From the NCBI RefSeq assembly GCF_026914265.1, contig NC_069127.1, forward strand, positions 68,048,723 to 68,112,722: a DNA stretch of 64,000 nucleotides, given 5' to 3'. This stretch comes from Mya arenaria. Taxonomy: Eukaryota; Mollusca; Bivalvia; Myida; Myidae. Below are positions 3,669 through 59,194 of this stretch, in pieces; positions within the stretch are counted from its first letter, which is position 1, and each line of letters starts with the position of its first letter. The position numbers and the translations under genes were made by a program. Under the pieces are notes generated by a model. It had not been told where the DNA came from and did no database searches. It saw only the letters and a program-made list of their open reading frames with translations.

Positions 3669-6600
3669 GCTAAGAAAACTACAAATGCAGTCTTCGATAA
3701 CCATGGTAAGTTTTGCTTTCATGTTTTATGTTTCTCTGTATCAAGCAGCTGTCGTAATATTGAAAGTTATTAAAAGAAAAACAATACCGACTAACATTCT
3801 CCAGTTTGTATCACCAGCTCGGTATCTTCTTACAATCGTTTCATCTTCAGTGCCTCGAACTGTGGGTGATCATTTACTTTGTAGATGTCGACCGAGAAAC
3901 TGTCGAGTTTATTACAAACGATTGTTTGTTGTAAAATGTCTAAAAATTATATCGACCAACAATAAACTGTTTAGTACGAACAACACTAAAAAGAATCGGG
4001 TATCAATTTCATTTCTTTGAGCAAAGTATTTGTGTTTTCTTTTCGAACAGTTGAAGACGGACATGTTGCTGCTAGTCTTGGATACAAGGTAACTTTATTT
4101 TATGATGTTTCGTTCCGCGGATTAACCGCACCTTATTTTTTGAATATGTAAAAAACTGTTGTTTGTTCGTGGCATCGCACCTTTATTTTCATCGCGAACC
4201 GGATATAATTGTGGTAATCAACTTTTTTGAAAGCTGCAACTCAATAGATAAGAAATTTCTATATAGCAAGTTCCCTTTGCAATTTTATTGTATTGTTTTA
4301 TAAAGGGTAGTAACCGATGTGTGGAGTTTGATATATGAAATAGTTCAATATAAAAGTTGTTCTCGTTGGTGCCAAAATACAAGGAACCTTTATAGGAGCA
4401 ATATATCAAAAATACTCTAATATAGATTGGTAAGAAAATGACCCATTTAAGCAATGTTAAATATTTGACAAGTTGATATTTTTAACAGTTCCCCTTTTGA
4501 ATATTGTAAATTATCGCCATAAAACAATGTTCAAGAAATCCTCATCAGCACGAATGGGAAACTCCGTTTCAAAATTTACGCACCTTTTGTATTGTCACGT
4601 GATAAAATGCATTGTATTGATAGTAATTTAAGCTGCAATGCCAAATAATTCTGCCTTCTATTTTTGAACCCAAATGTGTTATAAACTTTAACACTTTTCT
4701 GTTGTTTCTATGAATGTTACGAGCTTTCTACTTACTTACTACTAATAACTATTTGCAATACTTGTACCATGAGCCAGTAAAATATTTTTTCGAAGAAGGT
4801 GAAATAGTTCTTCTAACAAATTGTACAATGTGTGACAATGTTACAGGCCATTAAAACAGTTTTCATGATTACAACGTTTTTGTTAAAAGGGAGAAGAGAC
4901 ACCAAAATATGAAATGCTTGTCGGAGTATTTGAGCCAGATATAATTACCCGTCTAGAACCCAAACAAGTTCTGCCCTACATGCCCTCTATCGGTAAATAT
5001 TGTCAATATATTATATTTTTTCTCAAATCAACTTGCAGCATATTCGACCCAAATGTCGATTTTTCTGTTCTTGCGGTATAAGGGGTCACCATAGCATTTC
5101 TAGTTCTTTCAGGCCTGGCATCTCGTTTCCATAATGCATGTACCATTCGCTAAAGCTGACATTATCTGTTATGTCCCGACCGTGAAAAGAAACACTCGAA
5201 AATCGGGATTACGAGATGGTAGGGTTTCACATACAATTGCCATCAATGAGCAGTATCAATCAAAATTGGACTTTTTCTTACCTAAGTACGAATGATCTCT
5301 CTTTCAGAATGCATTTTTATATTTGATTATTAAGTATTAATTTTTAATTATCCAGACAAACTATTAAAACAGCCTTCATATTTAGAGTATACCGATTTTA
5401 TTATATTTTGTATGGGCCGGACTCATTTGTATAATAAACATAAACATAGACAAAAACTTTAAGCATCTTGTTATTGTTGGTGACTTTAACTACCCGAACG
5501 TGAATTGGGACACTTGCACATCCACTGATAGGGAAGGTTCTGAGTGCGACCAGTTCTTGGAGAGTTTGAAAGACTGTTTCCTTGTACAACATGTAGAAGA
5601 ACCAACCAGATACCGTGGCACGCAGAGACCGTCACTTCTCGATCTTGTGCTGACTGCAGAAGAAAATGTGATCAGAGACATGCGTATATTAGCACCCCTT
5701 GGCAATAGTGACCATTGTACTATAGTTTTTGACTACATTTGCCAGCAAGAGCTCTCTTCAAGCAAAACACGGAAATTCAAATACGACAAAGGGAACTATG
5801 CCGATATGCGAGCTTCAATGGCAAACACAGACTGGAAGCAAGAACTATCGACGAAAGACACACAAGAATCATGGGATAGAGTTAATGTCATTATTACCGA
5901 GGCAATAAATGAACACATTCCAACCCACACTGGTGGACATGCAAAAAAGAAACGTCAGATTTATATGGACAGATCAGCGATGAAACAAGTGAAAGCCAAA
6001 CAACGTGCATGGCAAAAGTACACTGAGACTCAAGATTTGCATGACTATGAACTATACTGTAAGACAAGGAATAAGTTGAGAAGTTACACAAGGAACCTTA
6101 GAAAGACGTTCGAAGAATCACTGGCGTATGAAGCAAAACTCAACCCAAAAGCCTTTTGGAGATATACCAAGACCAGATCAACAGTTAAGAGCGGAGTTAG
6201 TGACTTACAAGATAGTGAAGGTGTTATGAGGGGTGATGACGAGGACAAGGCTGAGATATTGAATGACTTCTTTTGTAGCGTTTTTACGAAAGAAAACACT
6301 GAACGTGTCCCAACAGTTGAAAGTAGATGTAATGTTGAATTATCCAGTATTACCATTACAGAGGATATTGTTGGGAAGCATCTGAAGAAGCTCAAGGTGA
6401 GCAAATCGGCGGGTCCTGATGGTTTGCATCCCAGGGTCCTGAAAGAGATTGCACCATACATCACTGAACCACTGAAGATGATCTACATGAAATCCATTAC
6501 ATCGGGGATGCTTCCAAGCCAATGGAAACAGGGACAAATAACGCCGATCTTCAAGAAAGGTGACCGCAGTCAGCCAGGAAACTACCGGCCAGTGAGTCTG

Positions 6601-9600
6601 ACATCTGTCCTCTGTAAAGTGCTTGAGGCAATTATCAGAGAGCAAATGATGAAACACATGGTTGACAATAATCTTTTCTGTGACGAGCAGCATGGGTTTG
6701 TACCGGGGAGATCGTGCATGACTCAGCTCATTACGTGCCTCGACGAATGGACGGAAATGCTTGACAACGGTGATCCACTGGACGTAGTGTACCTAGACTT
6801 CAAAAAAGCCTTTGATACTGTGCCGCACCAACGCCTTGTTAACAAACTTGAAAGCTACGGCATCAAGGGAGAAGTGAAGACCTGGATAACCAACTTCCTG
6901 AACAATCGTACTCAGCGAGTGTCTGTTAATGGAAATCTTTCTAACTGGGCTGACGTAACCAGCGGGATCCCCCAGGGCAGCGTCCTAGGCCCGGTCTTGT
7001 TCGTCATCTTCATAAACGACCTGCCAAACGCTGTAAGAAGTGTAGTGCGTATCTTCGCTGATGACACTAAAATGTATGGCAAAGCAACAACAACCGAGGA
7101 TAGGGTAGAACTACAGAAAGACATTGACAATTTATCAAAGTGGTCTGACAATTGGCAACTCAAGTTTAATACCAACAAATGTAGCGTGATGCATCTGGGC
7201 CATAACAACGTAAGAACTGTGTATCACATGAATGACAATGATGGTGTGCATAGAGATCTCAAGGAATCGGTGATCGAGAAAGACCTGGGGGTACACGTGG
7301 ACAACAAGCTATCTTTTCACCAGCACATTGATGAATCTGTGAAAAAGGCAAATCGTACACTTGGACTAATAAAAAGAACTTTTATCAGCAGAGACAAAAT
7401 GATCATCAAAAAGTTATACACGACAATGGTACGTCCAATCCTAGAGTACGGAAACTCGGCAAGGATACACCAGTATGCTGGAGACACAGACAGGATAGAG
7501 AAGGTTCAGCGCAGGGCCACAAAAATGTGTTCACAACTGAGGGAATTACCATACGAAAGAAGACTTAAAGAAATGAAGCTGCCATCAATGCACTACAGAC
7601 GAGAAAGGGGTGACATGATCCTCACAGGAAAGAACAAGGTCGACCAAGAAAGACTTCTACCACTTAACACATCAGATAGAACCAGGGGACACAACTTGAG
7701 GCTCACTAAAAAGAGAAGCAGACTGAATATTCGGAAGTGCTCTTTCGGGTTACGCGTTGTGAACAACTGGAACGCACTACCAGACTGGGTTGTTAACGCC
7801 ACGAATGTGAATGACTTTAAGAGTAAACTTGAAAAACATTGGAGTGGTAGGGAATACAGCACCAGATCCACGCATGTGCCAGTTATAAACATACTAAGAA
7901 GACCATGTAGAGACTGGGAGTTACAGGCTGCTTAGCCTTTATCCCGAAGATCAAGGTATCAAGGTATCAAGGTATCAAGGTATAAGTTTAGGCCGATGCC
8001 GGGCGGCGTTGACAGTGTGGTAAATACCACCAACGCCAAGTCTCAATCAGACCAATACTACTATTTTCGTTCCGTATGCAACTGTCTATGATTTGCTTCC
8101 GAATGACATCTCTTTTAGAATGTGTAAATCATTGATTTGTCAATGACACTTTATCTGTATATGTACTTAGTTTGGTATTTAAAGCGCTATATTATGTACA
8201 CGGCAACTCACTGTAGTGTAATAACAGGAAAACAACGATATTTATCTAGATCCCATCCTAAGTGACAAAATCAAGAACATTAGCGAGATTGACAGAGCTG
8301 TTGCTTCGGGAGTTCTGCTCGACGCCATAAAACAGTCACGTGATCGAGGAATTTGGCGGGAATTTATGACAGCTTTGGAAGGAACCAGTGAGTAGCAAAT
8401 TCCTTTCCACGGCTTTCTTTAGTATGGTGTCATAAGAAATAAATTAAGATAACAAAAAAATGGGACGGAGATTGTTGATATATGAAATAAATTTTCAGCA
8501 TATGAATGTGTACTTCATAAAATTAACTTCTTCGGCTGGATGTTTTTCGGTTTTGTTTTTATTGTCGATAATTATATTCCCTGCAGAATATATTGCACTG
8601 CGACAAAAACTTCATGGAGACTCTGTTCACGATGATACTAATGAAAGACGGTATATTGAGATTATGACTCCCCAGCTTAGACAAATCATAAATCCATGTG
8701 AGATAACACCCGCGCTTCTTTCTCGTGACGTTCTCATTCAAGAAGACGTAGAGGAGATTACATGTGAGGCAAACAACCGTGGTTCCATAGCGGCAACAGA
8801 TCTGTTATTGAAAAGGGTATCTGGGAAGCATCCCAAGTGGTACACTGAATTAGTTGCAGCTCTTTTCACTAGCGGTATGAGTGATGCAGGAGATATCCTA
8901 CTTGAAGGGTTGAACCGTACGTATGCGGCATTTATATCACAACCTTCTATTATATGTGCTTGCTGTGAAGCTTTTCGCATTAATGGCTACCAACCAACGT
9001 GAACTATAAGTGTAATGTTTTGTTAAATATCTGAAAATGAGATTGTCGTTAAATGAATTAGGTTCATACAAGCTTTCCTAACTTTTCATAACTGTTTTAA
9101 CACGAAACGGCGAGCAAAAAAATAATAATAAATACTCTTTTTTCTTATAACTATTTTTAAACATTACGAATAACGAGGTTGTTTTGATCTTAACAGAGAT
9201 CCCCGAAAGATCAAAAGATTCTATATCGTATCTGACACGATCACATGTTCCTAAAACAGGTATGGACGTACTTATTATTCTAGACTTATTTAAAATGTTA
9301 GAAAACGATCAAAATGTGTTAAAAAACAAAAAAAATACATTTTGTCGAATGTATATCAATTCCCATCATGAACAATCTTAAATATGGAATTATAAAAACT
9401 TCAATGTGTCCTTATAATATATGCATCTGATTTTGCTGCAAACACTGGTATTCCATTGAAATCACTTTAATAATCAAAGCAAATGTTAAACAGTAATATG
9501 ATTGCATCAAACATATTAAGATAATCATGAATCTCTTTCCATCATTACTTCATATGCTTCAATTTTAACAAAGCAAAATACAGGAATACATAGCGACAAT

Positions 9601-12600
9601 GTATTCTTGACGAGATTGTTCATATATATCTTTATATATAGATATTGATTTCTACTGTATTACAGAATTAAAGGGAACACACTCGCGATCCAAATCTGTA
9701 AAAGAGAGAAATCCTAAAACAGGTATTTAAAACCGAATCTGTGTATAATTTTGCCCTGAAAAATAACCAATACAAACGTTGGTGTGGAAGCCAAATATTA
9801 AAGCGTTTGAATTTTTATTATATTACAGAAGTGAAGGGAATGCACCCGGTATCCAATTCTGTAAAGGAGAGAAATCCTACTCAAGGTATTTTTCAATTTT
9901 CAATTACAATACATATGTATATATATATACATCAATAGTTTTGAAGTATATTACTTTGCAAGGCTAAACATGCATCCTTTGCTATATGTCTGGTGTGCTT
10001 TAAGAAGTTGAGAAAAATCTTTTAAATGACTGTTTTGTCAGAATTTTTTACATTATCAATATTTTCTTTGCCAAAATATTACAGACTATCAAATCAGGAA
10101 TGCCATGTTGCACTGGAGGATATCGGACCTAAAATTAACTTATTGTGCATGTGTTAATACGCCATCTTTATCTCGATCGGCAATTTTGAATGAGCCTATC
10201 TAGTGTTTTAACACTATGCCCTAAATTAACCTTTAAACGGCCCTTTCCTATAAATTATAAACTAGACAAGTTACGTGTGATTATATGTATTAATTTTTTT
10301 TGATAACAGTGCTTGATGCGTGATGAAACTCATAACTATCCGTGATTATTACTTTTCGAATTCCCCTCAAATTACTTGTATTTATAGGCAACGGCAAAAA
10401 ACAACAAAGGCCACATTCGTCAGTTACACCGTTATATAAATTGGGTAATCAACCAAGCACACAAGGTAAGATTTAACTCGATGCAGCTAACATAAAATGG
10501 TATTATCACCGTCTACAAATGTTATTTATTCACTGAGAAAAAGGCAGCATTCTTTTTAAATTCTTTATGATAGAATGGTTAAACCTCTTATCCAATCAAT
10601 AATACGACTTATATAAATGTCGGAATGGTTTAATAGTTCATTTTTTTCTCAAAATATACATTTTTTCAGTTCCTTCTAATTCTAAATAGTATTATGCTTA
10701 ACAAATATTTGAATTACTACCTTAAAAGCCTGATAAATTTCAAGTATCGATTGATACCGATATTTTAATGCGTATGAGGTCAATTTGTTTTGTTTGTACG
10801 TTCGTGTCTCTCGTCCAATGTCTTTTCGGCGTTTACCGTATGCCTCTAAACAGGGTTTCTAAAAGGGGCTTTTCCCTGTAGTTTTTATTCTATTATTGTG
10901 AGTCCTCTAGAAAATGTACGAACTTACAGACTCAACATTATTGACTATCAAGTTTCTCTTTACCTATGACGTCAATCCCTGTTGGTCTAGACACTATCAG
11001 AAAAAAATGAGAAAATAAACGAACCATAGATGGTGATGATTTAAACAAACAGGCTCATTGACAATTTTTCTTCACCAGATAAATTTAAGACTCAGCAAAA
11101 TCGGATCTATCATAACTGTATCTTTTAAGAATTCTTTCAATGTGTTTAGCGATTAGAATTATTATCAACAAAAAAAAAATCTTCCTTTTTATGTTAAACA
11201 CCTGAAGGAAAGTATTACATTACACCAGTCATGCAAAGACTAGAGTCTGAAGAACATGTTTATGATGTGGTTTCTGACGAAGATAGCTTATATAAGACCA
11301 CCGACTTTCGGAAGAAGGTAATCGGTCGTATCTTGTGTTAGACTGAGGTTTAGTATTTTTGTCCTTGCTTGTAGCATCACGAGTCGCATGACATAATCGT
11401 TTTTGTTTTGTTTTAATTAACTTTTTTCGTAGCGTTCTTTTTTGTTTTAGAACACAGTTAGTATCATTTGATGAAAAAAACTGCCAGCTATTTTATTCTT
11501 TATAGTCTTGTATTTCATAGTGATAGAAATGGAAGAATACATATATACAATATGCGAATTCTGCGGTTTAAAAATGACAGGCACTTTTTCAGGAAGTAAA
11601 CGAAGATGCCGAGGTGGATATCGCCGACACAGGTAGAGTTTTCCTTTTAGGATTTGATCATTATTCATTTACATGTTACATAACTTTGAATGAAACATTT
11701 AACAAGTGTAACAAGAGTTACCATGGATATAGCCATCTGAAAAAATATATATATAGCAATTTTGAATAAAAACGAGCCACAACTGCACCTTAATTGCAAT
11801 GCTAATCTTGGTAAATGCCAAATGGGCCTTGAAATCCAGAAATCAAGAGTAGACTCCAATGAACATAGCGTGAGACAATTGAGCACAACTAAATTTTAGT
11901 TGTAGTTTGACATCAGATTCATTCCTCAAAGGGTATACTACTATTCTGTGATATTGTATTGAAATCTCGTATAAACATTTATAACATTATACGAAGCTGA
12001 GGAACACCGTGTTGCTATGAAATCCCTAATACACTGCACTGACCTAAAACGTGACTAACCACCAATCTCAATGTTATGCGTCACACATCTCTCTGTTGCA
12101 CGCTACTATTATGAAAGTTTGATTGAGATATCCGCAATAGAAACAAGGTTTTTGTATGACTAAGACACAGAAACGCGTGTAGACCTTATTAAGGCTGCAT
12201 TTAACACCAAAAACAAACAAAAGTGACCTTGCCTTATAGCTCAGAGCATGAGTGTTGTACAGGACACAAATAGTGACATAGATTTGGTTGTGAGACAAAT
12301 AGGTTTTGTAATAATGAAATCCGTATTAAGATGCATGACATTGACCTTTGGGCTGAGTGAACGAACTATTATGCGACACAGCTTCCAATGATGACCCTAT
12401 TATTCAAATCCATCTTCAGTAACACTCGTGACATTTTTATATTGATCGTGAACGACAGTTAGATCTTTCATCGAAATAATTAGGCCAATCACATTGTAAT
12501 TAATACACCAGGCCGCTTTATAGCAGATTGAATGTGGTCTTGTTATTTTTACAATATGGATTACAATTTCTAAAGGCGATTCAAGGTCTTTTAATTCGGA

Positions 12601-15600
12601 TTTATTATATGCTTTCCGGTGGTTTAAAGAGATTGATCAGTGAAATAAAAATGATATTTCGCTGTTAAACAGTGAAATAACTTTTTGATATTTTTGATAT
12701 TTTCATTGTTTTGAAAATTTAGCCCGCTCTCATTTCCAAAACAAACGTCAGTGCGAACTGGGCTGATACACAAAGCCAACGCCGTCATTTCCGAAATTAT
12801 GTTACGTTCGCATACAGTTTGGCGCGCTTTCTTGACAAACTACAATAACTGTCATTTGAAATCCGTTTTTGGCATATTATGTTTGTTGCAGTGTAAGATC
12901 GCAGTATATTTCACCTCTTGAACACCAAAAGAAAAGTTGTTCACGCCACTCTTCGCCTCTCTTGAAGTGCTCACTCGGTGAAAGGTATTACGATATTTCA
13001 CTGAAACAAACAATTATCCTCTACGTAATCTATGATAACAGTAATTAACATACAAAGTTAAAAGACATTTTACCATTTAATTAAAACATGTATTTTTCTA
13101 TACCATAACCCTGATATTTCGGACTAAAGTGATTCTGAATGGACAATCAAAATCCTTTATACCGGAAAGGATAATGCTATCCACATTTTTTGTAAATTTA
13201 CATTAGATTATGACATGCTTGTTTTTTCAGTTTTCAGTATTATCAGAATTTAAGACCTTCAATTTAAAGATATTAGTATTTCTGCTCGCATTATAGTATG
13301 ATAAATAAAAAATCATCTGTTTAAGTAAATAAGGTTAAAAATAATAAACAATATGTCAATTGCATGAGGATTTATTAGCGTTTTGATTTCAGAAAATCGT
13401 ATTTAAATATCGTGGAACAGATTATTCCATTCCTTGTTTTAACCTAACATATGAAGTTTCTGTGTACGTTTGGCAAAAATGTATTTTTTATCAACTTCTC
13501 CAACGTTGTGTGTTTTAAATGTGATGGTTGAACGCACGACCAAAGGCTTCCTAAGATATGAAGTCTTGGACCTTTTTCAATAATATCTTATACTTATGTA
13601 TAAGTGTCACAAATTAAGTTGAACATTTTCCTTGCAAAATCAGATATACTTTGGCCTAGCTGACAAATCTAGAAATATTTTATATATCCTCTCATAAATA
13701 GCAATTGGAAAATGCGACAGAACGAGACGTACATTGATATGATGGCCCCAAGATCCTTTATTTTGCTCAATGTTAACTCGAAGGCATTCGCTGTTTTAAC
13801 TTTCATTGTGATCCGAGGGTAGGACTGAGGGAGAAGAAACCAAGGATTAAATCAAATGTCAGTCTCCAATGATTTGATCACTGATAACACACTGATTCAA
13901 TCGTTATCATTGTGATCCGAGAGTAGGAAAGGTTTGTGTGAGAACTTGAGTGCCTTTACGAAAATCGTCATAACTTAACTATCTAAACCGGTACTTTCAC
14001 AATTTTTGCACCTATATTAAGCTAACTGTTAGGCGAGTTTCAAAAAGCTCTTTATTAAAACTCGACAATAATTGACCGCTTACACTACCGGTGCATTTTA
14101 TAAAAAACGGGAGTGCCCTTACGAAAATCTTAATGATTGTGTTATTAAAATGCTATTTTTACAGTTTGTACACCGTTATAAAACTAGGAAATTTATATTT
14201 CGTTGTGTTTTATCAAAGTCGATCATAACATAGAATCAATTGGCAGTGAAACGGCGAGGTACTTAAAAACCATTCATTTTTTGTAAATTTATCATAAAAG
14301 AAAAAAATATAGATTTATTTAACTTATACCGATATACAAATAAGAAGGTTCCCTTTCGTTTGATAAAAATCTTTCTTGGGGAAATCATTAGTTTTTTAAT
14401 TATGTCTATGGCGAGTAATAAGACATTGTGAAAAATTTCATACAAAGCCGATTGGTGCTATTTAAAACGACTATGATGTTAACATTTTAGGGAACCTGTT
14501 CATTAAACTTTCATTTATTGAAAATAATGACATTATTATTATTTCATTCGATTAAGCTTTATATGTATAACTGACTTCTGTATATTTTATATAGCAAGTT
14601 ACAAAGAATCAGTTCACGAACAACAGCAATTTCAGACGGAAATCAAAGACCGCGTGGGTTCGTAAAAAAGACAACTAGTCTGCATGTTCTCTTCACGAAA
14701 CATAAATGAATTGAATTATAAAGAAATTCGCTTTTGTTTGATAAAATGATGAATTTGAAAGTACTTATTCAATGTGCATCTTATCTTTAAAACATATATT
14801 TTCATACGAGGCTGTAGTATTTATATTTCAAATGAATTATTTTAAAACAAGTTTTATAGGAAAAAGCGAATAAATGTGACTGAAAATAACTGTCTCACCA
14901 GCTTGACTTCCTTTTATTCTTCTTTTCTTTGAATGATTTCTTTTCAAATCTTGGTTTGACGAAATATATTCTTGAGAGGTCATGACACGGGTAGTGCTGC
15001 TTCACATTTCTGTTTTGACTATTATGCGACTTCATTATATGGCTTTGACATTGAGTATTCGGAATTGATCCGCTTATCTTAAATTTACAAAACAGTAATA
15101 ATTATATTATATTAATGTTTTAAAACTATCTGGGACAATATAGCTGTTTTTTGCCCCGGCCAGTCGATCACATTGGATTTCTGAGATAAACAGCTCACAA
15201 GTTAGTGCAGTAATACTGAAACATATGCTGAACAATTGTTAAGAATGTTTCAAAATATTTTCCCTATGTTATGATATAGAGTTACATAATTTTTTCCTAA
15301 AGATAAAGGTTATTTTTTTGTAAAGACTGGGTGAAATTGCTCCACACAGAGCGCACTTTTCCTTTTAGGTTAACTATACTTACAGTACCACCCTATAAAT
15401 GTGTCTGTGAACTGTGCATTGGTTTCCCATCCTTCGACTATCTACCAACTTTAAATCTCTTAACATTTGATCAAGTGTAGTCGTTCTCTGAAATAAAAAA
15501 ATAGATATTACATCATTGACAGGCTCAGAAATATTGTGTTTTTTTTTACAATAATTTTATTATAATTTATAGATTATCGAAAAGGTGAAATGGAATGTAA

Positions 15601-18600
15601 ATTGCATTAAAAGACGACATTCACCTCTCATTTTTTGGTATGCAATATTCAGGGGGGTGTACAGAAAAATTGGCAACAAAGAGGTTGGTTTGCGCGGTAT
15701 GCAGACACGTATTTTTTTGCATCATTTGGTATGCAGTATTTGCAAATTGTTTAGTATTTGTTCAAATAAATCTTCTAAAACAAAGAAAATATGTTGATTT
15801 TAAGGTAATTCCATATTTTCTTACACGAATGATCATAGAAAAACCATTTTCCACGAGTGGCGAACAATATTTTTCTATGAGATCATTTTTTTATATCCTC
15901 TCTATTGTTTTTCTTCAGAAACTGCAAATGACATACCGTATCTTTGTCTGGATAGAGCGTTGGTGGAAGGAACGAATGACATTGCAACACAGGTTTTATG
16001 CACTCACTCTCATTTGTTTGATTCATGTGATATCATATGTAACAACACCTATCTTGAGCACTGACTGTCCACATGCATCAGTTGGTAAATGTCGAACCAT
16101 GTGCAAAACATGTTATATAGATAAGCGTTACGTGAAGCAACATTTTAAGAGAAGCAATACGTTTCATAGAAAAACGTTAAGTGAAGTAATATCTTATTTG
16201 AAAGTCAAGAGTATGTACATACACATTAGGTGAAGCAATATCTTATTTGAAAGTCAAGAGTATGCAGATACACGTTAAGTAAAACAATATCTTATTTGAA
16301 AGTCCAGATTATGTAGATACACGTTAATTGAAGCAATATCTTATTTGAAAGTCAAGAGTATGCAGATACACGTTAAGTGAAACAATATCTTATTTAAAAG
16401 ACAAGATTATGTAGATAGACGTTAAGTGAAGCAACAACTCATTTGAACCTCAAGAGTATGTACATAATCTTTAAGTGAAGCATAAACCATAATTATTGTA
16501 AAGCAAATTAAGGTAGATTAGCGTTTACGAAGAAATCCTATATGTGAAAGTCCAATAATATCACGTTGAGTATATAGATATATCTTATATAATGTCATAT
16601 GTTTTTCAGTACTCTACATCGCTGCCGAAAGTGCCGCCACGACTGCCAATGCGTATTTCAAAGGACAGAGTTGAGTCAATGCCTATGAAGGAGCAGGACG
16701 AATATGTACGTGTTAAAGTCAGGTCATTTTTAAGGAACATTCTATCAGTTTGTCAACAATCGGTTGTTCTAGAAGGATATTTTGTTCAATAATCGCCAAC
16801 GAATATCATCGGCTAGAATCCCATTTGAATCTAATTTCATTAAAAATGGGCATGCTTAACGTGTATCAGTATGGCTCGTCCACTATTTTGCAATATTTGA
16901 ACGATTTATGAGGACATTAAAGTTGTATTATTTGGTGGTGCTTAGCAAACTTTATGCAAAATATTAAAAGACCGATGCAAAGAATATATTAGTCTTATTG
17001 TTACTGGCCTAAGAATATATATGTATTTATTGCAGGAAGACACTGACCTAATGAATGTCAAAAGAGGTAAGTACTATGAAATATGCTTTCAATTTTGTAT
17101 GATATTATATTTTAATGTCATACTCCTAGAGGCAGCTATTTGCCCCATGAGAACAGTACAACTCCGATATTGCTCGGATGTTGTATGATACTGGTGCCTG
17201 TGGTCAACTCCACGAAGCGGTTAGTTCCCCTTGAAAACAGAACAAAACCAAGGAACTGCTAAAAGGTTGTATAAACTTAGTGCTTGTGCCAACCCCCACA
17301 AAGCGGTAATTTGTCCTTAGAAAACAGTACAATTCCGATACTGCTTGGAGATTGCCCTTGTGTGTTGGTTCTCAACTAGACAAATATTAGTTCAGATGTT
17401 GTTATAATTTATAAAGAATATATTTATGTTTCCGATTCATTTCGATTTTTTATGAATGTATATATAAGGAAATATTACAGTTTTCATAGGAATTGTCATG
17501 ACTTATTCACGGTACATGTATGTAAAGATCCTTAGGAACATAATGCTTGAAGATTGTTTATTGGAGCTGAAACACATTATCAACATGTTTCCTCACTGGT
17601 AAAAATTTCTCTCGTTTTCAGAAACCATTTATGTTTATTCTGTAGAAGACCGTGATGCTATCTACGTAAGTAGTTCATTTATGAAATATTACAACGTTGT
17701 TACCATCATTTTACAAAGCTACTCTCGATGCATTGTTGAAGGTTATTTCTTATATATAAATACCTCAAAAATAGAACCTTGCGATGTAACATTGTTAAGA
17801 AAAAATGATGAGTAGTCTTTTGATATTTATACCTTGTCACCACTTTATTTTCATAGCTATATAATGCGTATTACATGTTTTAATTAAAATATTTGTCCAA
17901 AGGTTTCAACAACTAGCATCTTAAACATTGCAGCAGGGACATCGATCTTTTCAAAAGGGGGAAATTATTCGTGTCATAAAACCCAAAGACGATGAACAGG
18001 ACGAGGAATACTATCAGTGTGATGATGAGGCTGGGAACCTTATTCCTAAGAGTTGTGGTAAGTGTCATAACGAGATAGTGTTAACTAAACAAATATTATC
18101 ACTAAGAGACATAGGTGGGTTATGTGACCAATTAACTGACTGGATGTGTTCTTAACGCTATATTGGTCAAGGAGTATTACTGTCCGCTGTTCCCTAAGAG
18201 CTCGGGAACATGTATGATTATTCACTAAGTCACTGGTAAAATCCAGAAGGTTTCCAAAAACACTTCTATATAGATGCAAATATTCTGATTTTTGCTCATC
18301 ATCAGAAGGTTCTTGGGGATGTACGAATAGGGCACTATCACTTGTTTTTTACACAGGAAAGGTGCTTTAGATTAAACCAATATCACTATAACAAGAAATA
18401 TTTGAATTAGTTAAAATGAATGTAAACATTGCTTGCATTTTCTAGTTGAAGTCATTGACATACCAAAGAGAAAACATACAAGTAATCGCAAATCAACTTC
18501 ATCTGGTATGTACGGTTTCTTTATTAAAAATAAGACACATTTTTGGAATGAAAACGATTTTTTGGTTCACAGCCGTGTTACATTCATTAAGATTGAATCT

Positions 18601-20105
18601 GATAAAGACAAATTTTACAGTTTTAGAATCGTAAATAAGAACAAGGTTGTATTGAATGCATTCGAAACAAGCTTCTGTAAAACCTTATGCCACTTGGGCA
18701 CCCCTGTTTTAGACAAAATGCATTGACAATGCCTGTGGCGTTCACTCTACTAATCTTAAATCAAAAGGGAAAATGTATTGGTATAGTACTTAAACAACGT
18801 AACTCTGTTGAGAGTAAACTATAGCTATATCTGTGTCATGGTTAACACTCAAGTTGCATGGTCTTCGTTCAAAGCATTCTTTTGGTATTGTGGAAAAGGA
18901 TGGTCCTAGACTAAGCAGTTTTAGAGTTAGAGTGCATATACATTTTTCCAAACAACATTGGATGAGACCTTAATATTTGGCATACTGATCACCAACACTA
19001 TAAAGGTAATCACTGGTCAATGGCAACATGTGAGTTAATTTGCATTTTTAGTTCGTAGGATGCAGGCTTGCAGACTTTAGTACCGCAAAACGAAATGCCA
19101 CTTTATTTAAAAACAATTATAATATTTCAACGTAAAATAGAAAGAAAGTCAAAGAATCTCAAATGAATCACGGTGAGGAACATAGGGGAATATAAGGTTA
19201 TACGTTACTAAGCAGAACATTTAATATGTTTTGACTAAAAGCCTCTGCCTTACTTTACCTTTTACAAATATTCAATATATCCTCAGCCAATATCGGGTTT
19301 CATGTAATTAACTTAACACTAGCAGTACACTTGCGAGTTAAAAGCAATGTCCATATATAATGTTCAAAATAATTGAAACTCAGTAAGCAGTTTTCAATTG
19401 CAAAATAATGAAAGTTCGATAAGTACTGACTCTCGCTTAAGCCGCGAACAATCTCCTTGTTAGAAACTTCGGTTGTGTGCTTATTAACAAACATTTTGAT
19501 CAACTCGATAATCAAAACATAACGTTGGTAAAAATGACAATTAGATAGAGCTTCAGGAAATCTGACATCCATTAATTTAATACGTATACTATCATTATTT
19601 ATAGTTTTATATTGGAAACTTTCTGTGTGTAATTAAAAAGACTTGTACCATTATACAGAATCTGCATCCGTTGCAACAGACACTCAAATTCCTGAGAGTA
19701 TGATAAAGACGGTTAATCAAATGTTAAGTGATCTTCTGAAGAAACACAAGGTCTTAGAGCAACACGTGGAAGTTCTTAAGGAGCAGCGGGGTGTGCGCGA
19801 AAACGGTATCAAACAAGGTTTGGTCATACCTGATTATAACGTATTTCAATTATCAATTTAATTAGAGTAAATGTGTAGTCAACATGCATCATCTATGCAA
19901 TACGCTGTACTTGTTTAGCCTTTAAAACGCTTGGTTACAAATTGTGTGATGGGATGCATAAACATACAACGTACCATATTGCCCATATAAATTATAGTTC
20001 TAATACATGAATTTCAATTGTACCTATGATATTTTATTGATTTGCGTTTGTTTTTCAGAAGACGATGATGAAGAAGACCTTGAAAACATTACTTCTTTGT
20101 GCTGA
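3669..20105 (+). CDS. Gene A: tandem-CARD, tyrosine-motif, SH3-like, coiled-coil protein (20 exons visible)
   Basis: Exons by eye: 3669-3705, 4051-4088, 4890-4992, 8250-8387, 8587-8916, 9197-9259, 9666-9722, 9829-9885, 10388-10465, 11208-11317, 11593-11632, 14595-14657, 15919-15992, 16610-16705, 17036-17066, 17622-17665, 17934-18057, 18446-18505, 19659-19805, 20059-20105 (TGA). Every junction is AG/GT and every phase matches, giving about 578 residues without a stop. Order from the first visible residue: CARD1 (about 30-105), CARD2 (107-213), micro-exon linker (217-300), tyrosine-rich tail (302-438), SH3-like (440-500), coiled coil (530-560), acidic end. The CARDs are of the RIG-I/MDA5 type, but no helicase follows. 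A cytoplasmic immune adaptor is my inference. The N terminus is missing. Exons 14595-14657 and 15919-15992 are least certain: one has a weak donor, the other lacks support from the gene B copy. Gene B duplicates the first half. Confidence 0.75.
4890..8387 (+). CDS. Gene A CARD1, split over two exons
   Basis: Exon 4890-4992 gives the first helices, with the stretch EPDIITRLEPKQVLPYM, the same pattern as helices 1-2 of RIG-I-like CARDs (hydrophobic positions before and after an L-x-P, then LPY). Exon 8250-8387 gives the last helices, ending in GIWREFMTALE, like the W-x-x-F-hhAL end of RLR CARDs. The first exon ends in phase 1 at GTAAAT; the second begins after TATCTAG. Both boundaries and both exon lengths (103 and 138 nt) recur in gene B at 61316 and 62211. 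The 3.3-kb intron between them is inflated by a LINE. Confidence 0.8.
5461..7935 (+). CDS. LINE ORF2 remnant: endonuclease C-terminus plus reverse transcriptase
   Basis: About 825 open codons. The frame is open from 5368, but LINE sequence begins near the GDFN motif at 5479; the first internal ATG is 5500. In order: end of the APE-type endonuclease (GDFN, later SDHCTIVF), the linker with SAGPDGLHPRVLKE, RT motifs with PIFKKGDRSQPGNYRPVSL and QHGFVPGRS, motif A YLDFKKAFD (about residue 429 counted from the 5500 ATG), motif B SGIPQGSVLGP, motif C FADD (about 519), and the C-terminal region with KWSDNWQLKFN. The catalytic aspartates are present and no stop interrupts, so the copy looks young. 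Missing most of its endonuclease and any ORF1, it cannot act alone in the usual way. Confidence 0.92.
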   Translation, partial: KHLVIVGDFNYPNVNWDTCTSTDREGSECDQFLESLKDCFLVQHVEEPTRYRGTQRPSLLDLVLTAEENVIRDMRILAPLGNSDHCTIVFDYICQQELSSSKTRKFKYDKGNYADMRASMANTDWKQELSTKDTQESWDRVNVIITEAINEHIPTHTGGHAKKKRQIYMDRSAMKQVKAKQRAWQKYTETQDLHDYELYCKTRNKLRSYTRNLRKTFEESLAYEAKLNPKAFWRYTKTRSTVKSGVSDLQDSEGVMRGDDEDKAEILNDFFCSVFTKENTERVPTVESRCNVELSSITITEDIVGKHLKKLKVSKSAGPDGLHPRVLKEIAPYITEPLKMIYMKSITSGMLPSQWKQGQITPIFKKGDRSQPGNYRPVSLTSVLCKVLEAIIREQMMKHMVDNNLFCDEQHGFVPGRSCMTQLITCLDEWTEMLDNGDPLDVVYLDFKKAFDTVPHQRLVNKLESYGIKGEVKTWITNFLNNRTQRVSVNGNLSNWADVTSGIPQGSVLGPVLFVIFINDLPNAVRSVVRIFADDTKMYGKATTTEDRVELQKDIDNLSKWSDNWQLKFNTNKCSVMHLGHNNVRTVYHMNDNDGVHRDLKESVIEKDLGVHVDNKLSFHQHIDESVKKANRTLGLIKRTFISRDKMIIKKLYTTMVRPILEYGNSARIHQYAGDTDRIEKVQRRATKMCSQLRELPYERRLKEMKLPSMHYRRERGDMILTGKNKVDQERLLPLNTSDRTRGHNLRLTKKRSRLNIRKCSFGLRVVNNWNALPDWVVNATNVNDFKSKLEKHWSGREYSTRSTHVPVINILRRPCRDWELQAA
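7950..7981 (+). repeat. Four-copy 8-bp tail of the LINE
   Basis: Four perfect tandem copies of ATCAAGGT immediately after the LINE stop codon and a short 3' UTR. Such 3' microsatellite tails are a hallmark of CR1-like elements and mark the 3' junction. Confidence 0.9.
8587..8916 (+). CDS. Gene A CARD2, single exon
   Basis: One 330-nt exon between CCTGCAG and GTACGT. The protein begins YIALRQKLHGDS and continues RYIEIMTPQLRQIINPCEI, LLSRDVLIQEDVEEI, NNRGSIAATDLLL, PKWYTELVAALF and GDILLEGLN. This is the full helix order of the RIG-I/MDA5/MAVS CARD group: two basic helices, an acidic helix after a 'D-V-L-x-x-E-D' turn, an A-A-T-x-x-L-L helix, then a W-(Y/F)-x-x-L-V-x-A-L helix. Gene B's copy (62468-62797) has the same length and about 12 differences in 109 residues. 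The open frame can be read further upstream, but the acceptor and the gene B match fix the exon start. Confidence 0.85.
9197..10465 (+). CDS. Gene A linker: four phase-1 micro-exons, three of them homologous
   Basis: Exons 9197-9259, 9666-9722, 9829-9885 and 10388-10465, each phase 1 at both ends, so each can be gained, lost or skipped without a frame change. The second and third encode near-copies: both have SVKERNP followed by KT or TQ before the donor. The first ends VPKT and matches gene B 63144-63206. The fourth, with RPHSSV, matches gene B 63923-63988. The sequence is basic, polar and probably disordered. Gene B has one micro-exon (63481-63534, VKERNPNT) where gene A has two, so copy number differs between paralogues. 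Confidence 0.75.
11208..17066 (+). CDS. Gene A tyrosine-motif and proline-motif region (six small exons)
   Basis: Exons 11208-11317, 11593-11632, 14595-14657, 15919-15992, 16610-16705 and 17036-17066. Visible motifs: EEHVYDVV and DEDSLYKTT (exon 1), ASYKES (3), DIPYLCLD (4), LPKVPPRLP and QDEY (5), running on as EDTDLMN (6). Acidic residues before Tyr and a hydrophobic residue at +3 are what Src/Syk-type kinases and SH2 domains favour, and PPRLP is an SH3-ligand type. The layout recalls scaffolds such as FYB/ADAP, an analogy of form and not shown homology. Support is splice phase and sequence bias only, since gene B leaves the window before this part. Confidence 0.6.
12000..12480. repeat. Degenerate mollusc-type dispersed repeat in gene A intron
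   Basis: Repeated phrases such as ATGCGTCACACA, GTGACCTTGCC, GACATTGACCTTTGGGC and TAGTGACATAGATTT recur at roughly 110-130 bp spacing, as in decayed tandem units of a dispersed element. No ORF. The intron 11633-14594 otherwise shows only a second weak direct repeat, CATTGTGATCCGAG(A/G)GTAGGA, at about 13804 and 13908. Confidence 0.4.
16110..16480 (+). repeat. 49-bp minisatellite in gene A intron
   Basis: The phrase ATCTTATTTGAAAGTC starts at about 16191, 16240, 16289, 16338 and 16387, a steady 49-bp period, with a decayed copy on each side. Each unit also holds CACGTTAAGTGAAGCAA. It lies wholly in the intron between exons 15919-15992 and 16610-16705. Confidence 0.85.
17130..17370 (+). repeat. 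About 84-bp tandem repeat, three copies
   Basis: GAAAACAGTACAATTCCGATACTG-like blocks start near 17150, 17233 and 17318, each preceded by a CCACAAAGCGGTTAGT-like phrase. Copies are diverged. Intronic, between exons 17036-17066 and 17622-17665 of gene A; no coding sense. Confidence 0.65.
17622..18505 (+). CDS. Gene A SH3-like domain (three exons)
   Basis: Exons 17622-17665, 17934-18057 and 18446-18505 join to read IYVYSVEDRDAIY, then SFQKGEIIRVIKP, an acidic loop QDEEYYQC, and GNLIPKSCVEVIDI. This follows the SH3 order: ALYDY strand, L-S-F-x-x-G-D-x-I, the W-W strand, and G-x-x-P-x-x-Y-V. Departures: the double Trp is YY, and the 3-10 helix Tyr is Cys (KSCV for SNYV), so binding of ordinary PxxP ligands may be altered, as in helically extended or lipid-binding SH3 folds. 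A basic stretch (PKRKHTSNRK) follows. Homology is judged by eye. Confidence 0.65.
19659..20105 (+). CDS. Gene A coiled coil and acidic C terminus (last two exons)
   Basis: Exon 19659-19805 encodes an amphipathic stretch (MIKTVNQMLSDLLKKH, then VLEQHVEVLKEQRG) with hydrophobic residues in heptad spacing, a likely oligomerisation helix. Exon 20059-20105 adds EDDDEEDLENITSLC and a TGA stop. Both acceptors are good (TTATACAG, TTTTTCAG) and phases match. I see no clear AATAAA in the next few hundred bases, so the 3' end of the transcript is not defined. Confidence 0.7.
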
Positions 20106-22262
20106 TCAAACAAGGACTGTCGTGTACTCTGCTGAAACAAATCACTGTTTGTCGATATGTTTTAACATTTTGCTAGCGATCACCTTCATGATAAGTGCTG
20201 CTTAACTCCAAAATCGAGTAACAATGACATAAATGCTTCAAACTTTATTTGATGGTGATACCTGCAAGAACTTTGGAAGCTAAAAATATGCTTCACAATA
20301 CTCCCTTAAATATTTGTAAAAAAAAGCTGGAAATTAGCTTTGATTGGACACCGTATCTTGTTATGTTTGTACATTTGTTAACATGTTTAAGGAAAACATT
20401 CATGTTTTATCGGATAAGTTTATCTAACACTACTTTAATACTGTGTATATTGCAAATTTTAAGGAGATCAAATATTGGTTCCTTTTTATTTTGATTTATG
20501 TTATGTGTCATAATATATTTTTTTTCTAAATTATTTTAACTCCATTAACAAGGCCATGAAATGAAAAGAAAAGTAATTTCTTGCTCTGTTTCTCATATTT
20601 CATGTCATCAATATATACATTGGAAGAACATGGTTTTAAAAGAGGAAAACATTTATTTTTTAACCTAGAAAGGATGTGAAGTGATGAAATGATTTTCGTT
20701 AGTTACTCAGTAATTACTAAGTTTTTTCGACAAACTCGAGTCAATTAATTACTACTTATATACATATCGGGATTCAAATCCATTTCTTTCATTCATATTA
20801 CTTGGGCCTACACAAAATATGTAACCTTCTATTAAATCATACCAAATAGTTTCCTTGTTATTTTTACAATATTACTTGAATCGTAAAGTTTTAAGTTTCC
20901 TCGCTAGTTTTTATCATGTGGTGACGCATTTATTTAACTGACTTTGACAGGATGACACCACTGAATTTCAATTTCTAAGGTATTCGATGTACAGAAATGT
21001 CAAGTTTGATCCATAGTGACCCTTTATAAATTTGGTATCATATGAAAGGGTTTCATTTGAAGAGGAGGAAGAATATGTAAAAGATATACTGATACAGGTG
21101 TGGCAAAAACGCTGTTTGGACCTAAAATTATTGAACAGTCGGTCATTTAACTTCCGATATCAGTTTTAAAAAGAAACAAAATTTGCCATATCTTTATCTG
21201 TTAGGCATTTTGGTGAATAATTTAAATAAATAGTATTATTTCGAACGATAACAAAATAATATGGGGCCGTCAGGCATCAAAACCAAGAAATAAACACTAA
21301 ACTATCGAAGTCCTACATGAATGTAAGACTATCTTATCATTTCAGGAAATAATATTCTGGAATCCATCTTAAATTACAGAAATTGTTTAAATCATAAAGG
21401 AAACTGACATGAGTTTCAGTGACAAACTGGAAAAGAAGCAAATTTCTGCTCTTTTCCATCTTCAGCATCTCAGCCAAAGAATAAGCAAACTATAGATCCC
21501 CCTTTTTATTGATTGGAATAACATGCACCACATTGAAATGTTTTTATCAAAACTTCAAACCATTAAAGTGTCAACAAAATTTCATTTGTCAGGTAAGACA
21601 GGTCATGGAATATTGCAAAAAGCTGAAAATATCAAAATTGTCTACAATGGAGATGGAGACAATGGAGAAAAAAATAACACTTTCAAAGGTTATGAAATAA
21701 ATAAATGAAGTTATGTCATGCCAAAAACTTTTAAAAAAAACAACATCCAAAGCCGGTACTTTGCTCAACTAACCTTAAACTTAAAGGCAAAAATTGTTGT
21801 TAAAATAAGATAAACCGGACATGTAAGTTATTAAAAAAATTAACTACTGACACATTCAGAAAATGAACTCGAAATGGCAAAAAACTTCTGAACATCATAT
21901 CAAAATAGACAAATTCACTTACAATGCCTATATGCACACATGCTTTAAGTTGTTATGAAAAAGAAATCTGAGAAACATGCAATAATTTGGTAAGTATGTA
22001 AGAAATAGCCACTCATAATTTGCCCGAAAAAGGGGAAATTCACATTTTTTTACAATATCCTTTACAAAACATCAAAAATGATCATTAGATTTAAGCAGAA
22101 AATTAAATACTGATACACCGTTAAATGATATGTACATCAGTGACTGATGGTTTTTAATAAAACATTATATATAAGCAGAAATGGCGAAAGTTATTGGAAT
22201 AAGAAACCCTTTACAACAAACGATCGTGAACATCTGTTATTTTTTAACATTAATACATTTTT
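20106..22262. other. Gene-free stretch after gene A
   Basis: AT-rich sequence with only short chance frames. It would contain the 3' UTR of gene A. The block around 21400-21720 is open for about 60 codons but low in complexity and unlike any family I know. Confidence 0.5.
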
Positions 22263-30509: not shown

Positions 30510-32476
30510 CTAGCATGATCCAGAACTGGCGAGGGTTGCTCCACTGAAATAATTATAACACAATTAAACTACATTATCGCAATCGTTTAGATCTTTTACA
30601 GTCTTAACAAATTTAAACTCCAAAAACTAATATCTACATTGCTATTGTAAATATTTAAGGAAATTCAAAGAATCTAGCTTTATAATGTAGCGAGTGTTAT
30701 GGACCGAGCTGCTTTGTTCGCTCCAGTACAATGACTTTAGAAAAACTGTTGAACATTAAATAATTTTACAATCTAGTTTAGAACGACATGAATATTCGTA
30801 CCTTTGTTAATTGTTATGCAGATTAGTAAGCAAACATAACATATCAAGAAAAACGGGTCAACTACATACTTGCACTCCATGAGGCATTCGTTGTTATAGG
30901 TAATACCGTCATTTCCACAGACTGGATTCAGATCTTTGGTACATGCGCAAGGGCATTGTCCTTGGGAACCGAAGGCAACGTTGCTTAAAAAAATTTGCAG
31001 AAGTGTTAATACCTCTTTAATAACAATCATAGATTAATAACTGACGGTTAATCATAGAAAAACACTGCAAAACTTTAGACAGCCTAGCTCTGACAAACAT
31101 CTAGCAGTACGCAAATTATCAGATTGTATGATTTCGAGCAACTTGTTTTTCTGTTGATCACATAATGGAAAATAAATATATTCATTGTATTTGGATGCAA
31201 AAGGTTTAAATTAACTTGGGAGATTGGAAATTGACGCGAATTTGTAAAAAGGCTTTTAATAAAATGGATTGGTGTTTGTACAAAATAATTTATGAACGTT
31301 AATTACATATTTCAATGATAGACAAAATAAATGATATTAAGATCGTTCGAATTACCCATGTTTGCTCGCATAGTGAAGATTTTTACTGGGATGACCATGA
31401 GAATATTAAAGGAAAAAAATTAAATAATTTATTTTATTTGATTAGTGACACATAAATTATTTTATTGTGTACTACAAATTGTCAATACGATTTTATAGCT
31501 CATGTCATTTTCTTTTAATTCTGGTTGATGGCGTTAGCATAAACGCCCTGCAAAGAACCGTGTCCTTAACTGGCAATCATACGCATGCGCAGAGGGCTAA
31601 GCAATTTACGACAAATATACGACTGTAATAAGGCAGGTGGACCTACAAAATATGCTCTATGAAAGTAAATGTTTGTATACACCGTCACATCTGCTTTACA
31701 TTCAATGGAGCTACAGTAAATACAGTAAATCCTCGATTTTCATTGACCAACAAATATCAGCGAACACTAAGCCCAGTTGAAAGATTATCTTTGTGTCGAA
31801 TACTTCTGAAATTGCTTTCTACATAACATACAGCGTGACTGCAAGGTAATGCATAATAAAACTAGAAACACTTATTCATATTTAGTACTTACGCGCATCC
31901 CAGTTCACACATATTTCCATAGGTGTTCCCGTCCTCTCCACAAACTGGATCCCATTGGGCAATGCATCCACAAGTTGGGGTTTTAGCGTTCGCAGCTACA
32001 CAATATTCAAAAGTTCATGGAATAAATTGAGGAACTGGCACTTGTGAAAACGCACATATAGGATATCGCAAAGACTCGTAGCAATACAAATAATTCAAAT
32101 AAATATAGAACTGTCTTTATATATGTTTTCTGTTAAAAAATGAATGAAATATCTATCTAATAAAAACATGCTTTATGCGATAAAATGTATAAATGTTTTA
32201 AGTGAAATTACCGTATAGAATTTCAAGATTAAATTCGTGTAACTCAAACGACAAGGCAGTTTTTACGGGTATTTTAAGGTGAATGACATACCTTACCCCG
32301 CGATTTTCGCGTGTCGGATAGTTTTCATATGATAAGCATTAAGCATAAGACGCTATTTGGCGCCAGGGTACAAATATAGTCAAGAAATAATTGTGGATAC
32401 TAAATATGAAGTTAAACAGCTCAATCTAACCTGCCAACACAGCTACCACAAGTAGACAGGAGATTACGGACCTCAT
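30510..32476 (-). CDS. Kazal gene 2: secreted two-domain Kazal inhibitor
   Basis: Transcribed leftwards, with exons 32431-32476, 31893-31995, 30870-30983 and 30510-30543, making 98 residues. Exons 2-4 have exactly the lengths of gene 1 (103, 114 and 34 nt) and the same phases. Signal peptide MRSVISCLLVVAVLA, domain 1 CGCIAQWDPVCGEDGNTYG, domain 2 CPCACTKDLNPVCGNDG, ending ATLASSGSC-stop. P1 by the Kazal rule is Ala in domain 1 and Lys in domain 2, so domain 1 specificity probably differs from gene 1. The gene is convergent with gene 1 and divergent from gene 3. Looks intact. Confidence 0.9.
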
Positions 32477-42446: not shown

Positions 42447-45300
42447 ACACTCAAATATCAAAATGTAACCAAACAAAAGGATTATTAATCTTAATTTTAA
42501 AGCCATTGAATCTAGAGTATCATCTGGTTTACCGAACTATCAAGCATAGCTTCATTGCAGAATTATCGAAGTTGATTCTATACAAACCCATAGTTTCTGT
42601 GTACTTTAGTACAAAGCAACAACAGGAAGTAGAGCCATTTTCGCCTCATTTTCTCAGCATGAATAGCAAAATCTGAGAGCCCTTCAGCCTCTTATAAAAA
42701 CTGAAGTACTATTTAAGAAACTATTCAAATCTAAAGTACATGCTGAAATAAAAATATTGTTTGGAATAAAACTAACATTTGCCAAATGTATATATTTTCG
42801 AACATATGGAGCTTAAGGTGAAATTTTGTAAGATAAGGATCCAACAAGAGTTTAAAACGCACGGGCTGTCACAGTTTTATGCGCAACAAACTCTACTAGG
42901 AATAACAAGCTTGCGTCATTGACTTTTCTTGTTTTCGTTTTCCGCCACCATGTTGCATTATGATTGAAAACGTAATATATAAGTTGTGTTTCTAAATTGG
43001 CTGCACTAGACTATTCAAACTAAATTTTAATGTAATGTGGCATAAAAATGGTAATACCGACTAAAGTATAACTCTCTCTCTCTCTCTCTGCTCAAAAGCC
43101 CTTGCTTAGTACGATGATTTTAGCGAATATATATCAAATAAACAAAAGTAAGACGAGATGTATGAATTATAAGACTTAGACAATCACAACTTACCATTAA
43201 GACACTTTATCAATACGGGCTCCTGGATTAAAGTCCACTGTGTAGTCAGCCGGAAATCGACGAAGGAAGCCATGCAGCTCGTTTACTTCCTATTTAATGA
43301 AAAACTTCAGCATCACACCTAGTAAAGGCAATAAAAAAGCCGCTCATCGACATTGTGGAAGACGGTGTTGTGTCTCAGAAGGGACACTGGTGGGCACGAC
43401 AGCTACATGAATATAACCAAAATATCATAGTGGGGTTTGGGGTGATGAGAGGGGAATGGCGTTCATTAATTCCTGCAAAATGACTACAGCAATGGGCAGA
43501 AACGGCAGTTCATCCAATAGTAACCTATGCGATAAATTGCAAAAGCCATCGCTATCATTAATATTTCACTGCTGGACATTTGTTTAGCTGATACTAAGAG
43601 TGAACAATACATTTTACTTTGCAGTGAACTACCCGTTCTTAATGAAAACGATCACTGGCCCTTACATTGTCATATCAGACTTAGAATTTTACAAAATAAA
43701 ATCAAAGGAGGTACACCAAACCCCACTGTCAACTTATAAAACCAAATAAATCTTGGTTCGGAGATAGGGGAGCAAGTAGAAAGGTACGCCTCTTGATTAC
43801 GCACCTCTGGTGTTAAATCCTGAAACCGCCCCTGATGTGTGCATGATGCATTTGTAATAATACAATCGTACTCTGTTCTATTGTTACCGAGTGTTATCAA
43901 ACGCTTTAATTTAATTTTGAAATTTTGGGTGGGTACTTTCTATATGTCGTGGTATTCGAAAAATGCGGGCGCCACGCCATGTCGGTGACCCGTAAATAAT
44001 TAGTAAACATTTTTTGAAATCATATTGTGAATTACCATAATTTTCATTTTACGATCAGAACGTACGTCTGTCCGCATTAGCCGCCATCTTGGAGAGGAAG
44101 GAAGCCGTCGTTTCACAAGTGGACGCCCTTTGACAGGAAGTAGTCCACTTTAGAAAGCAGTAGACAACAAATCGGGATGTCAGTACCTACCGACGATGGT
44201 TTTTAAAAAGTGCAAATAATCGTATCAACCCGTATTACAGTTTCGAGTATTAAATGTCTAGATATAAACTTAGTGTGTCCTTGAGAAAACTTTTCAATCT
44301 TGAATATTTTTATTAAAATTATAGTAATTCACAATATGATTTCTAAAATTTGCCCACATGGTTGTAATTGTCACTCATAATTATCATCTCAAATGCCCAT
44401 ATCAACTAATATCGGTCATGCGTTAACAGTGAAAAACGGTTTTTCACACCTTATCAAATTGCCTTTCAACTGTCATTGCAATTTTTACAACTTTCGAAAA
44501 TTTTAACACCTAGCAATTGTTTGTTTATTTTGGAACACGCGTTCGGGAAAACGTGTGAAATTATGTCCTCGAGGGAGCCATAAGGTTTTGTGCACGATTT
44601 GTGTACTTGGGACCGTGGATATTGCTCGACTGCTCGACATAATTAGGTTTCGATGCAGCGTGTGTATATTTCATATGAAAATAGAAGGAAAAAAAATCCG
44701 GACCAAGCTCCGACCTCGAGGGAACGCCGGTTCTCGAACGACCGCTTGTTTGAGGGAACGCAGTTTCAATGTATATGGACGGTATCTGCAATTTCATTTG
44801 TTGCAAATGTAGGTTGTATTCTACGCATGGAGTGTGTATTAGATGAGTGGCAGTAGGCGGAACTTTAAACACCCGTGTTCAGTTTGTTTAATAATTAAGC
44901 CTAGTACTTAATGGTTGCCTATCTAATTTCAGTGGCTGAAATGTAGGTTGTATTCATAAAAATATAAATATCATTATTTTAAGATTACTTCTACTGATAC
45001 ACCGACATACATCCGTTGTTTTCGATCGAAATTGGCCTAGTGTACATTTCAAGGGTAGTAACGTCAGGTGAATCCAGGTTTTCTGGTTTATTGTTTTGGG
45101 TGAAAAACAACGTCAACGTTAACAAGCAACTTCTCTACCTCCAGTGCACAATGTCGTTTCTCAAAAATATCGTTGAAATATATAGAAAACAATGTTTAAA
45201 CTCACCGAATCGATGAATCGATAAACCAGGAAACCTTGATGCACTGCCCTTGTATTTGGTTTCCCAGATTCAGTGGTATCCCAAATAATCTTACGATATA
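42447..45300. other. Intergenic; (TC)n run and a long inverted repeat
   Basis: No gene seen before the IAP. It holds a short CT microsatellite at about 43072-43090 and an inverted repeat with arms near 44015-44055 and 44310-44350 (AAATCATATTGTGAATTAC in the left arm, matched in the right), about 340 bp from end to end, possibly a MITE. Frames at 44555-44872 on both strands overlap each other and look like chance. Confidence 0.55.
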
Positions 45301-45339
45301 ATTTTACGATTGCATCATCTTATTGTAACACTGTCGAAA

Positions 45340-47619: not shown

Positions 47620-47708
47620 AAATATGAAACGTTTTCGGGGACAAGTTTCCAAGTATCTTATGTCAGAAAGCCAATGTCTAGTTGACATTCATGGACACAT
47701 AACAAACT

Positions 47709-57405: not shown

Positions 57406-57409
57406 GCAA

Positions 57410-58820: not shown

Positions 58821-58825
58821 CTGTC

Positions 58826-58955: not shown

Positions 58956-58959
58956 AGAC

Positions 58960-59190: not shown

Positions 59191-59194
59191 TTTA

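Follow-up and report, generated by a model that had tools for sequence, protein, structure and literature searches.

Gene structure at the locus

Within the window, i.e., the whole 64,000-nt stretch of Mya arenaria contig NC_069127.1 analyzed here, the forward strand between 3669 and 20105 holds 20 exons that we rebuilt from the raw sequence. All 20 acceptors are AG and all 19 donors are GT, and a single frame runs through the 20 exons for 578 residues to a TGA stop at 20105, which confirms at the level of sequence what the initial annotation had described as 20 exons with AG/GT borders, consistent phases and one frame. The predicted product, of about 580 residues or more, would carry two CARDs of the RIG-I/MDA5 type followed by a scaffold-like tail. 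The gene model has an open 5′ end, since exon 1 (3669–3705), whose acceptor and donor both rank in the best 1% of window sites and whose borders and frame fit, has no in-frame start codon. Upstream, a search of the first 3,660 bases with a set of donor patterns likewise yielded no initial exon with a start codon fitting the exon 1 frame.

Intron 3 harbors a non-LTR retrotransposon (5370–7982, forward strand), non-coding for the gene, with endonuclease and reverse transcriptase (Exo_endo_phos_2 and RVT_1 matches) in one open frame of 849 codons; short ATCAAGGT repeats come after it. The corresponding intron of the second gene copy described below does not contain the element, which was therefore probably inserted after the duplication. 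Intron 13 contains a tandem repeat with a 49-base spacing (16118–16509).

The exon list was compared with the output of an exon-chain search using typed generic splice matrices and generic amino-acid frequencies, untrained on this gene and with the retrotransposon interior removed. At a penalty of −9 the chain scored 105.1, against 10.0 for the reverse strand and a mean of 11.5 (sd 4.7, maximum 27.7) in 60 dinucleotide shuffles. Both halves stand out when taken separately: the head (7937–11700) reached 45.6 vs a shuffle maximum of 8.6, and the tail (11701–20200) reached 39.9 vs a shuffle maximum of 16.3, above all 60 shuffles. When the retrotransposon was left in, scores were 179.3 for the region and 38.3 for its reverse strand, compared with 14.9 to 49.1 over both strands of three further 18-kb stretches in that uncut version. 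Agreement with the list varied with the penalty: 15 exact, four overlapping and seven extra exons in a 26-exon chain at −8; 14, three and six, respectively, in a 23-exon chain at −9; and 12, three and one in a 16-exon chain at −10. Stricter splice thresholds, used in a first version covering 8001–21000, yielded 10 exons, six of them exact.

Exons 2 (4051–4088), 11 (11593–11632), 13 (15919–15992), 15 (17036–17066), 16 (17622–17665) and 20 (20059–20105, acidic C-terminus and stop) were recovered at all three penalties, exon 2 being in agreement by borders and frame as well. Exon 3 was dropped at −9 and −10, yet it is backed by the second copy. The search preferred exon 10 (11208–11317) at 11229–11317, so that an alternative start at 11229 is possible, and for exons 14 (16610–16705) and 19 (19659–19805) it preferred donors 12 bases later, with possible ends at 16717 and 19817. 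Exon 12 (14595–14657) fits by borders and frame and was recovered at none of the three penalties; we regard it as doubtful.

These weaknesses fall around the junction between the CARD half and the SH3-like half, where the locus can also be read as two adjoining genes: a tandem-CARD gene ending after approximately exon 11 and an SH3-like/coiled-coil gene starting from about 15.9 kb, with phases that fit by chance. Such an arrangement, which we consider unlikely, would account for the 2,962 bases that separate exons 11 and 12, for the failure to recover exon 12 and for the weak splice site in each of exons 10 (acceptor in the 55th percentile of window AG sites) and 13 (donor only in the 76th percentile), and the second copy provides evidence only up to exon 9. 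AATAAA/ATTAAA signals are present in the gap and are non-discriminating, as they are common throughout this AT-rich region. Against two genes, a version of the search that permitted a gene end and a new start for an added cost of 4 retained one gene at all four penalties, and exons 11 and 13 are in phase both with and without exon 12. The split-allowed search supports the join between both halves and is no proof of it; with no support for exon 12 and a weak splice site in each of exons 10 and 13, the join rests on phase and on a home-made score, which at −8 and −9 spans the gap by means of exons off the list.

Tandem CARDs

The two RIG-I-type CARDs predicted by the initial annotation are confirmed by profile search, with Pfam CARD_2 matching two stretches of the whole protein (E = 1.6e-22). 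CARD1 starts in exon 3 (4890–4992) and is completed by exon 4 (8250–8387); submitted alone, it reaches 29.6 bits across the exon 3/4 join, while CARD2, encoded by exon 5 (8587–8916), reaches 56.9 bits, both above the cut-off of 28.2. A PDB sequence search with the CARDs returned RIG-I in eight of nine matches (best E = 0.00016), the ninth being an unrelated regulator (E = 1.3), and duck RIG-I is co-linear over both CARDs (22–183 to 23–186, E = 0.022). Of five AlphaFold2 models of the CARD2 exon, one had a mean pLDDT of 72.6 and the remaining four were poor (pLDDT 37–45). A fold search with the former placed RIG-I tandem CARDs in the first seven positions with a probability of 1.00; the best match had an E of 0.041 and a TM of 0.71 by query length, and none reached an E of 0.001 or better. 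An alignment of CARD2 searched against a viral collection gave 73 pattern matches with no relative among them, and an NCBIfam search gave two chance-level matches only (E = 0.079 and 0.21).

The CARDs are followed by a linker exon (exon 6, 9197–9259), by exons 7 (9666–9722) and 8 (9829–9885), and by a basic linker in exon 9 (10388–10465). Exons 7 and 8 fit by borders and frame, are related to each other through a VKERNP repeat and look like a tandem exon duplication spanning 9666–9885. The basic linker was matched by Pfam Baculo_E56 at E = 0.02, a hit of 14.6 bits vs a cut-off of 28.9 that we took as chance.

Second copy and selection

A second, diverged copy of the CARD gene lies at 61316–63988 in the same orientation and runs past the window end, an observation that adds to the initial annotation. 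Matches to the first copy by blastn extend from 61283 to 63960, and the copy comprises six exons, all with AG/GT borders and phase retained: 61316–61418, 62211–62348, 62468–62797, 63144–63206, 63481–63534 and 63923–63988, which are the counterparts of exons 3, 4, 5, 6, 7/8 and 9, respectively. A single exon of the VKERNP type (63481–63534) was found in this copy. No counterpart of exons 1–2 was detected by blastn, and those of exons 10–20 would fall past the window end.

Comparison between copies gave a dN/dS of 0.207 for CARD2, whose 109 codons differ at 17 synonymous and 14 non-synonymous positions (Fisher p = 3.2e-5), and the CARD2 exon is 91% identical, while identity over the aligned columns of the neighboring introns is 85% and 68%. 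Both figures indicate protein-level (purifying) selection on CARD2. The two exons of CARD1 gave 0.45 and 0.49 (jointly p = 0.038). Such selection is not visible in the linker: dN/dS is 1.13 for exon 6 (p = 0.70) and near 1 for the exon 7/8 pair.

The same data bear on whether the locus could be a decaying or truncated RLR duplicate that lost its helicase, with tail exons that are chance or relics. This we find very improbable. The start codon that was not found, the retrotransposon in intron 3, the linker dN/dS near 1 and the existence of two tandem copies speak for decay, while 578 codons over 20 exons without a stop, the low CARD2 dN/dS and tail exons that outscore every shuffle speak against it.

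Tail: SH3-like segment, motifs and coiled coil

Net charge is +12 over residues 217–303 and −14 over residues 304–396; exon 10 encodes an acidic region with a VYDVV motif. The helicase that normally follows such CARDs was said to be replaced by this tail, and its absence is supported: the frame ends at 20105 and no Pfam match to a helicase or to the RIG-I C-terminal domain occurs in the 578-residue protein. Neither was found in 74 of the 111 downstream open frames of at least 60 codons, a scan that shorter exons could escape. No enzyme match was obtained in the tail, and the protein has no Pfam match to SH2, with PDZ and GUK not among the families listed for it.

An SH3-like segment is encoded by exons 16–18, starting in exon 16, with its core in exon 17 (17934–18057) and its end, together with a basic stretch, in exon 18 (18446–18505). 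In a PDB sequence search all 12 matches of this segment were SH3 proteins, among them Nck2, Grb2, drk, Abi2 and nephrocystin (E = 0.0075 to 1.6). Querying with the whole tail returned only the SH3 proteins Nck2 and Grb2 (six of six, E = 0.1 to 1.3). The Grb2 alignment includes exon 16, and that of Nck2 takes in the last part of exon 16 and continues over the exon 17/18 join. The SH3_2 profile scored 20.7 bits on the fragment and 15.6 bits in the whole protein vs a Pfam cut-off of 21.8. The 41-residue core was modeled as three strands (pLDDT 82), and a fold search with it placed no SH3 among the best 50 of 113 matches. The ADAP/FYB hSH3 family was not among the Pfam families listed up to E = 10. 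The SH3-like domain of the initial annotation stands as probable, with a score below the profile cut-off.

Its ligand-binding positions, named ALYDY, WW and PxNY, read SVEDR vs ALFDF in Grb2, YY vs WW in Nck2 and PKSC vs PKNY in Nck2. The ALFDF aspartate and the proline are retained in the segment, and most canonical ligand-binding residues are replaced, so that ordinary PxxP binding and SH3 signaling through it are doubtful. A likelier route to SH3 signaling may be provided by the two PxxPx[RK] motifs of exon 14, PKVPPR and PRLPMR, vs 0.14 expected (uncorrected P = 0.007, with 12 motifs scanned); exon 14 itself fits by borders and frame. The tyrosine motifs of the initial annotation are present without enrichment, which also weakens its interpretation: Yxx[VLIM] occurs twice vs 3.18 expected in shuffles and YDxV once (P = 0.088). 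The motif scan detected neither a TRAF nor a pLxIS pattern in the tail.

The coiled coil, also part of the initial annotation, is retained as a short one: exon 19 contains a single heptad stretch of approximately 25 residues with hydrophobic residues at seven of eight a/d positions (P = 0.013 by shuffling). By hydropathy there is no membrane segment, the largest 19-residue mean being 1.07 in the protein and 0.25 in its last 120 residues.

Comparison with known systems

With RIG-I and MDA5 the predicted protein has in common two N-terminal CARDs of the CARD_2 type, and the CARD2 model matches the RIG-I tandem CARDs first, whereas the DExD/H helicase and the C-terminal RNA-binding domain of RLRs are lacking, as the frame stops after the coiled coil. 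CARMA/CARD9 scaffolds have one CARD, a coiled coil, PDZ, SH3 and GUK in order; a CARD and a coiled coil in one scaffold (in CARMA also an SH3, here a probable SH3-like segment) are shared, and PDZ and GUK matches are not found here. Nck2 and Grb2, whose SH3 domains the SH3-like segment matches best in sequence, differ in that the present protein has no SH2 match and that the ligand residues are mostly replaced.

Neither the single N-terminal CARD nor the C-terminal membrane anchor of MAVS is found. Oyster CgMAVS is described as one CARD followed by a Death domain, with a membrane segment at the C-terminus (PMC5557890); CgMAVS and vertebrate MAVS are similar to our candidate in having an N-terminal RLR-type CARD on a non-enzymatic protein, while two CARDs and no membrane segment distinguish the latter from CgMAVS.

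Helicase-less two-CARD genes are already reported, and the nearest described case is LOC101858480 of Aplysia californica, which is described as having two RIG-I/MAVS-type CARDs without helicase or RLR C-terminal domain (PMC9334734). As described, it shares with the present protein the paired RLR-type CARDs and the missing helicase and C-terminal RNA-binding domain. The passages on LOC101858480 mention neither an SH3-like segment nor a proline motif nor a coiled coil, and the term “SH3” does not occur in that paper's main text. The initial annotation, which knew of no described family with this order, was overstated in that RIG-I/MAVS-type paired CARDs lacking a helicase are on record for Aplysia; overall, the initial interpretation is partly supported. 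Sea-urchin RIG-I-like genes are said to contain either a CARD or a DEAD domain (PMC3308963), and a lophotrochozoan RLR survey reports grafting of N-terminal domains, with “SH3” absent from its main text (PMC8998645). In the portions of the open-access literature searched we found no protein joining CARD and SH3 in this way.

Proposed role

CARDs signal by CARD-CARD assembly, and RNA binding releases and clusters the CARDs of RLRs, as outlined in the introduction of PMC5557890 and in part as general background. We lean, with some reservation, towards one gene of a tandemly duplicated animal family, whose helicase-less two-CARD product would act within the RLR/MAVS CARD relay as an adaptor or a regulator, a function that we infer. 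A scaffold-like tail appears to take the place of the RNA-sensing motor, which would give the protein such a role and not that of a sensor. The paired CARDs would join a CARD helix of an RLR or of MAVS, and the C-terminal coiled coil, perhaps together with the SH3-like domain, could gather copies and so stand in for RNA-driven helicase assembly. Proteins with SH3 domains, presumably resembling CIN85/CD2AP, Nck or Grb2, would be recruited through the proline motifs. The outcome may be activation or damping.

Alternatively, the protein could be a decoy or dominant-negative two-CARD regulator that caps the CARD assembly of RLRs or MAVS and passes no signal, a reading that partly overlaps the regulator half of the one above and that we rate as unlikely. 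In its favor, TRAF and pLxIS motifs, a membrane anchor and a helicase were not found, and selection falls on the CARDs, CARD2 above all. Its long tail, on the other hand, with SH3-like, proline and coiled-coil features, exceeds what capping needs, and the free RIG-I 2CARD is an activator when overexpressed.

Returning to the adaptor/regulator reading, a more specific version, which we offer tentatively and as a less likely one, is a tandemly duplicated family of helicase-free two-CARD scaffolds in which the coiled coil, instead of RNA-driven helicase assembly, would trigger CARD polymerization and the proline motifs and a degenerate SH3-like domain would tie it to SH3 adaptors, making it a further adaptor of the antiviral relay beside MAVS. 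A further CARD-relay adaptor of such make-up was not found in the portions of the literature searched. Relay of the RLR signal in invertebrates is an unsettled question, for which a two-CARD protein whose tail provides for both assembly and recruitment would be a concrete candidate. In Aplysia, MAVS is reported missing and helicase-less genes with RIG-I/MAVS-type CARDs are reported to be retained (PMC9334734), and in oyster MAVS a Death domain occupies the place of the proline-rich region of the vertebrate protein (PMC5557890). Were the protein a regulator only, it would still be a further case of RLR CARDs serving a purpose other than RNA sensing.

Neighboring elements in the window

Between the two CARD gene copies, a BIR domain (45289–45948, forward strand, 3e-13) is followed on the same strand by a RING match (2.2e-16) at about 47400–47700, a position judged by eye; both together are perhaps an IAP gene. 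The interval also includes a Kazal-type protease inhibitor domain on the reverse strand (30776–31033, 1.5e-9), Kazal_1 being matched by two of the 74 open frames scanned. Closer to the second copy, a 31-base minisatellite of approximately 1 kb (56459–57447) reads as long open frames, and GC skew is −0.150 over 56001–60000.
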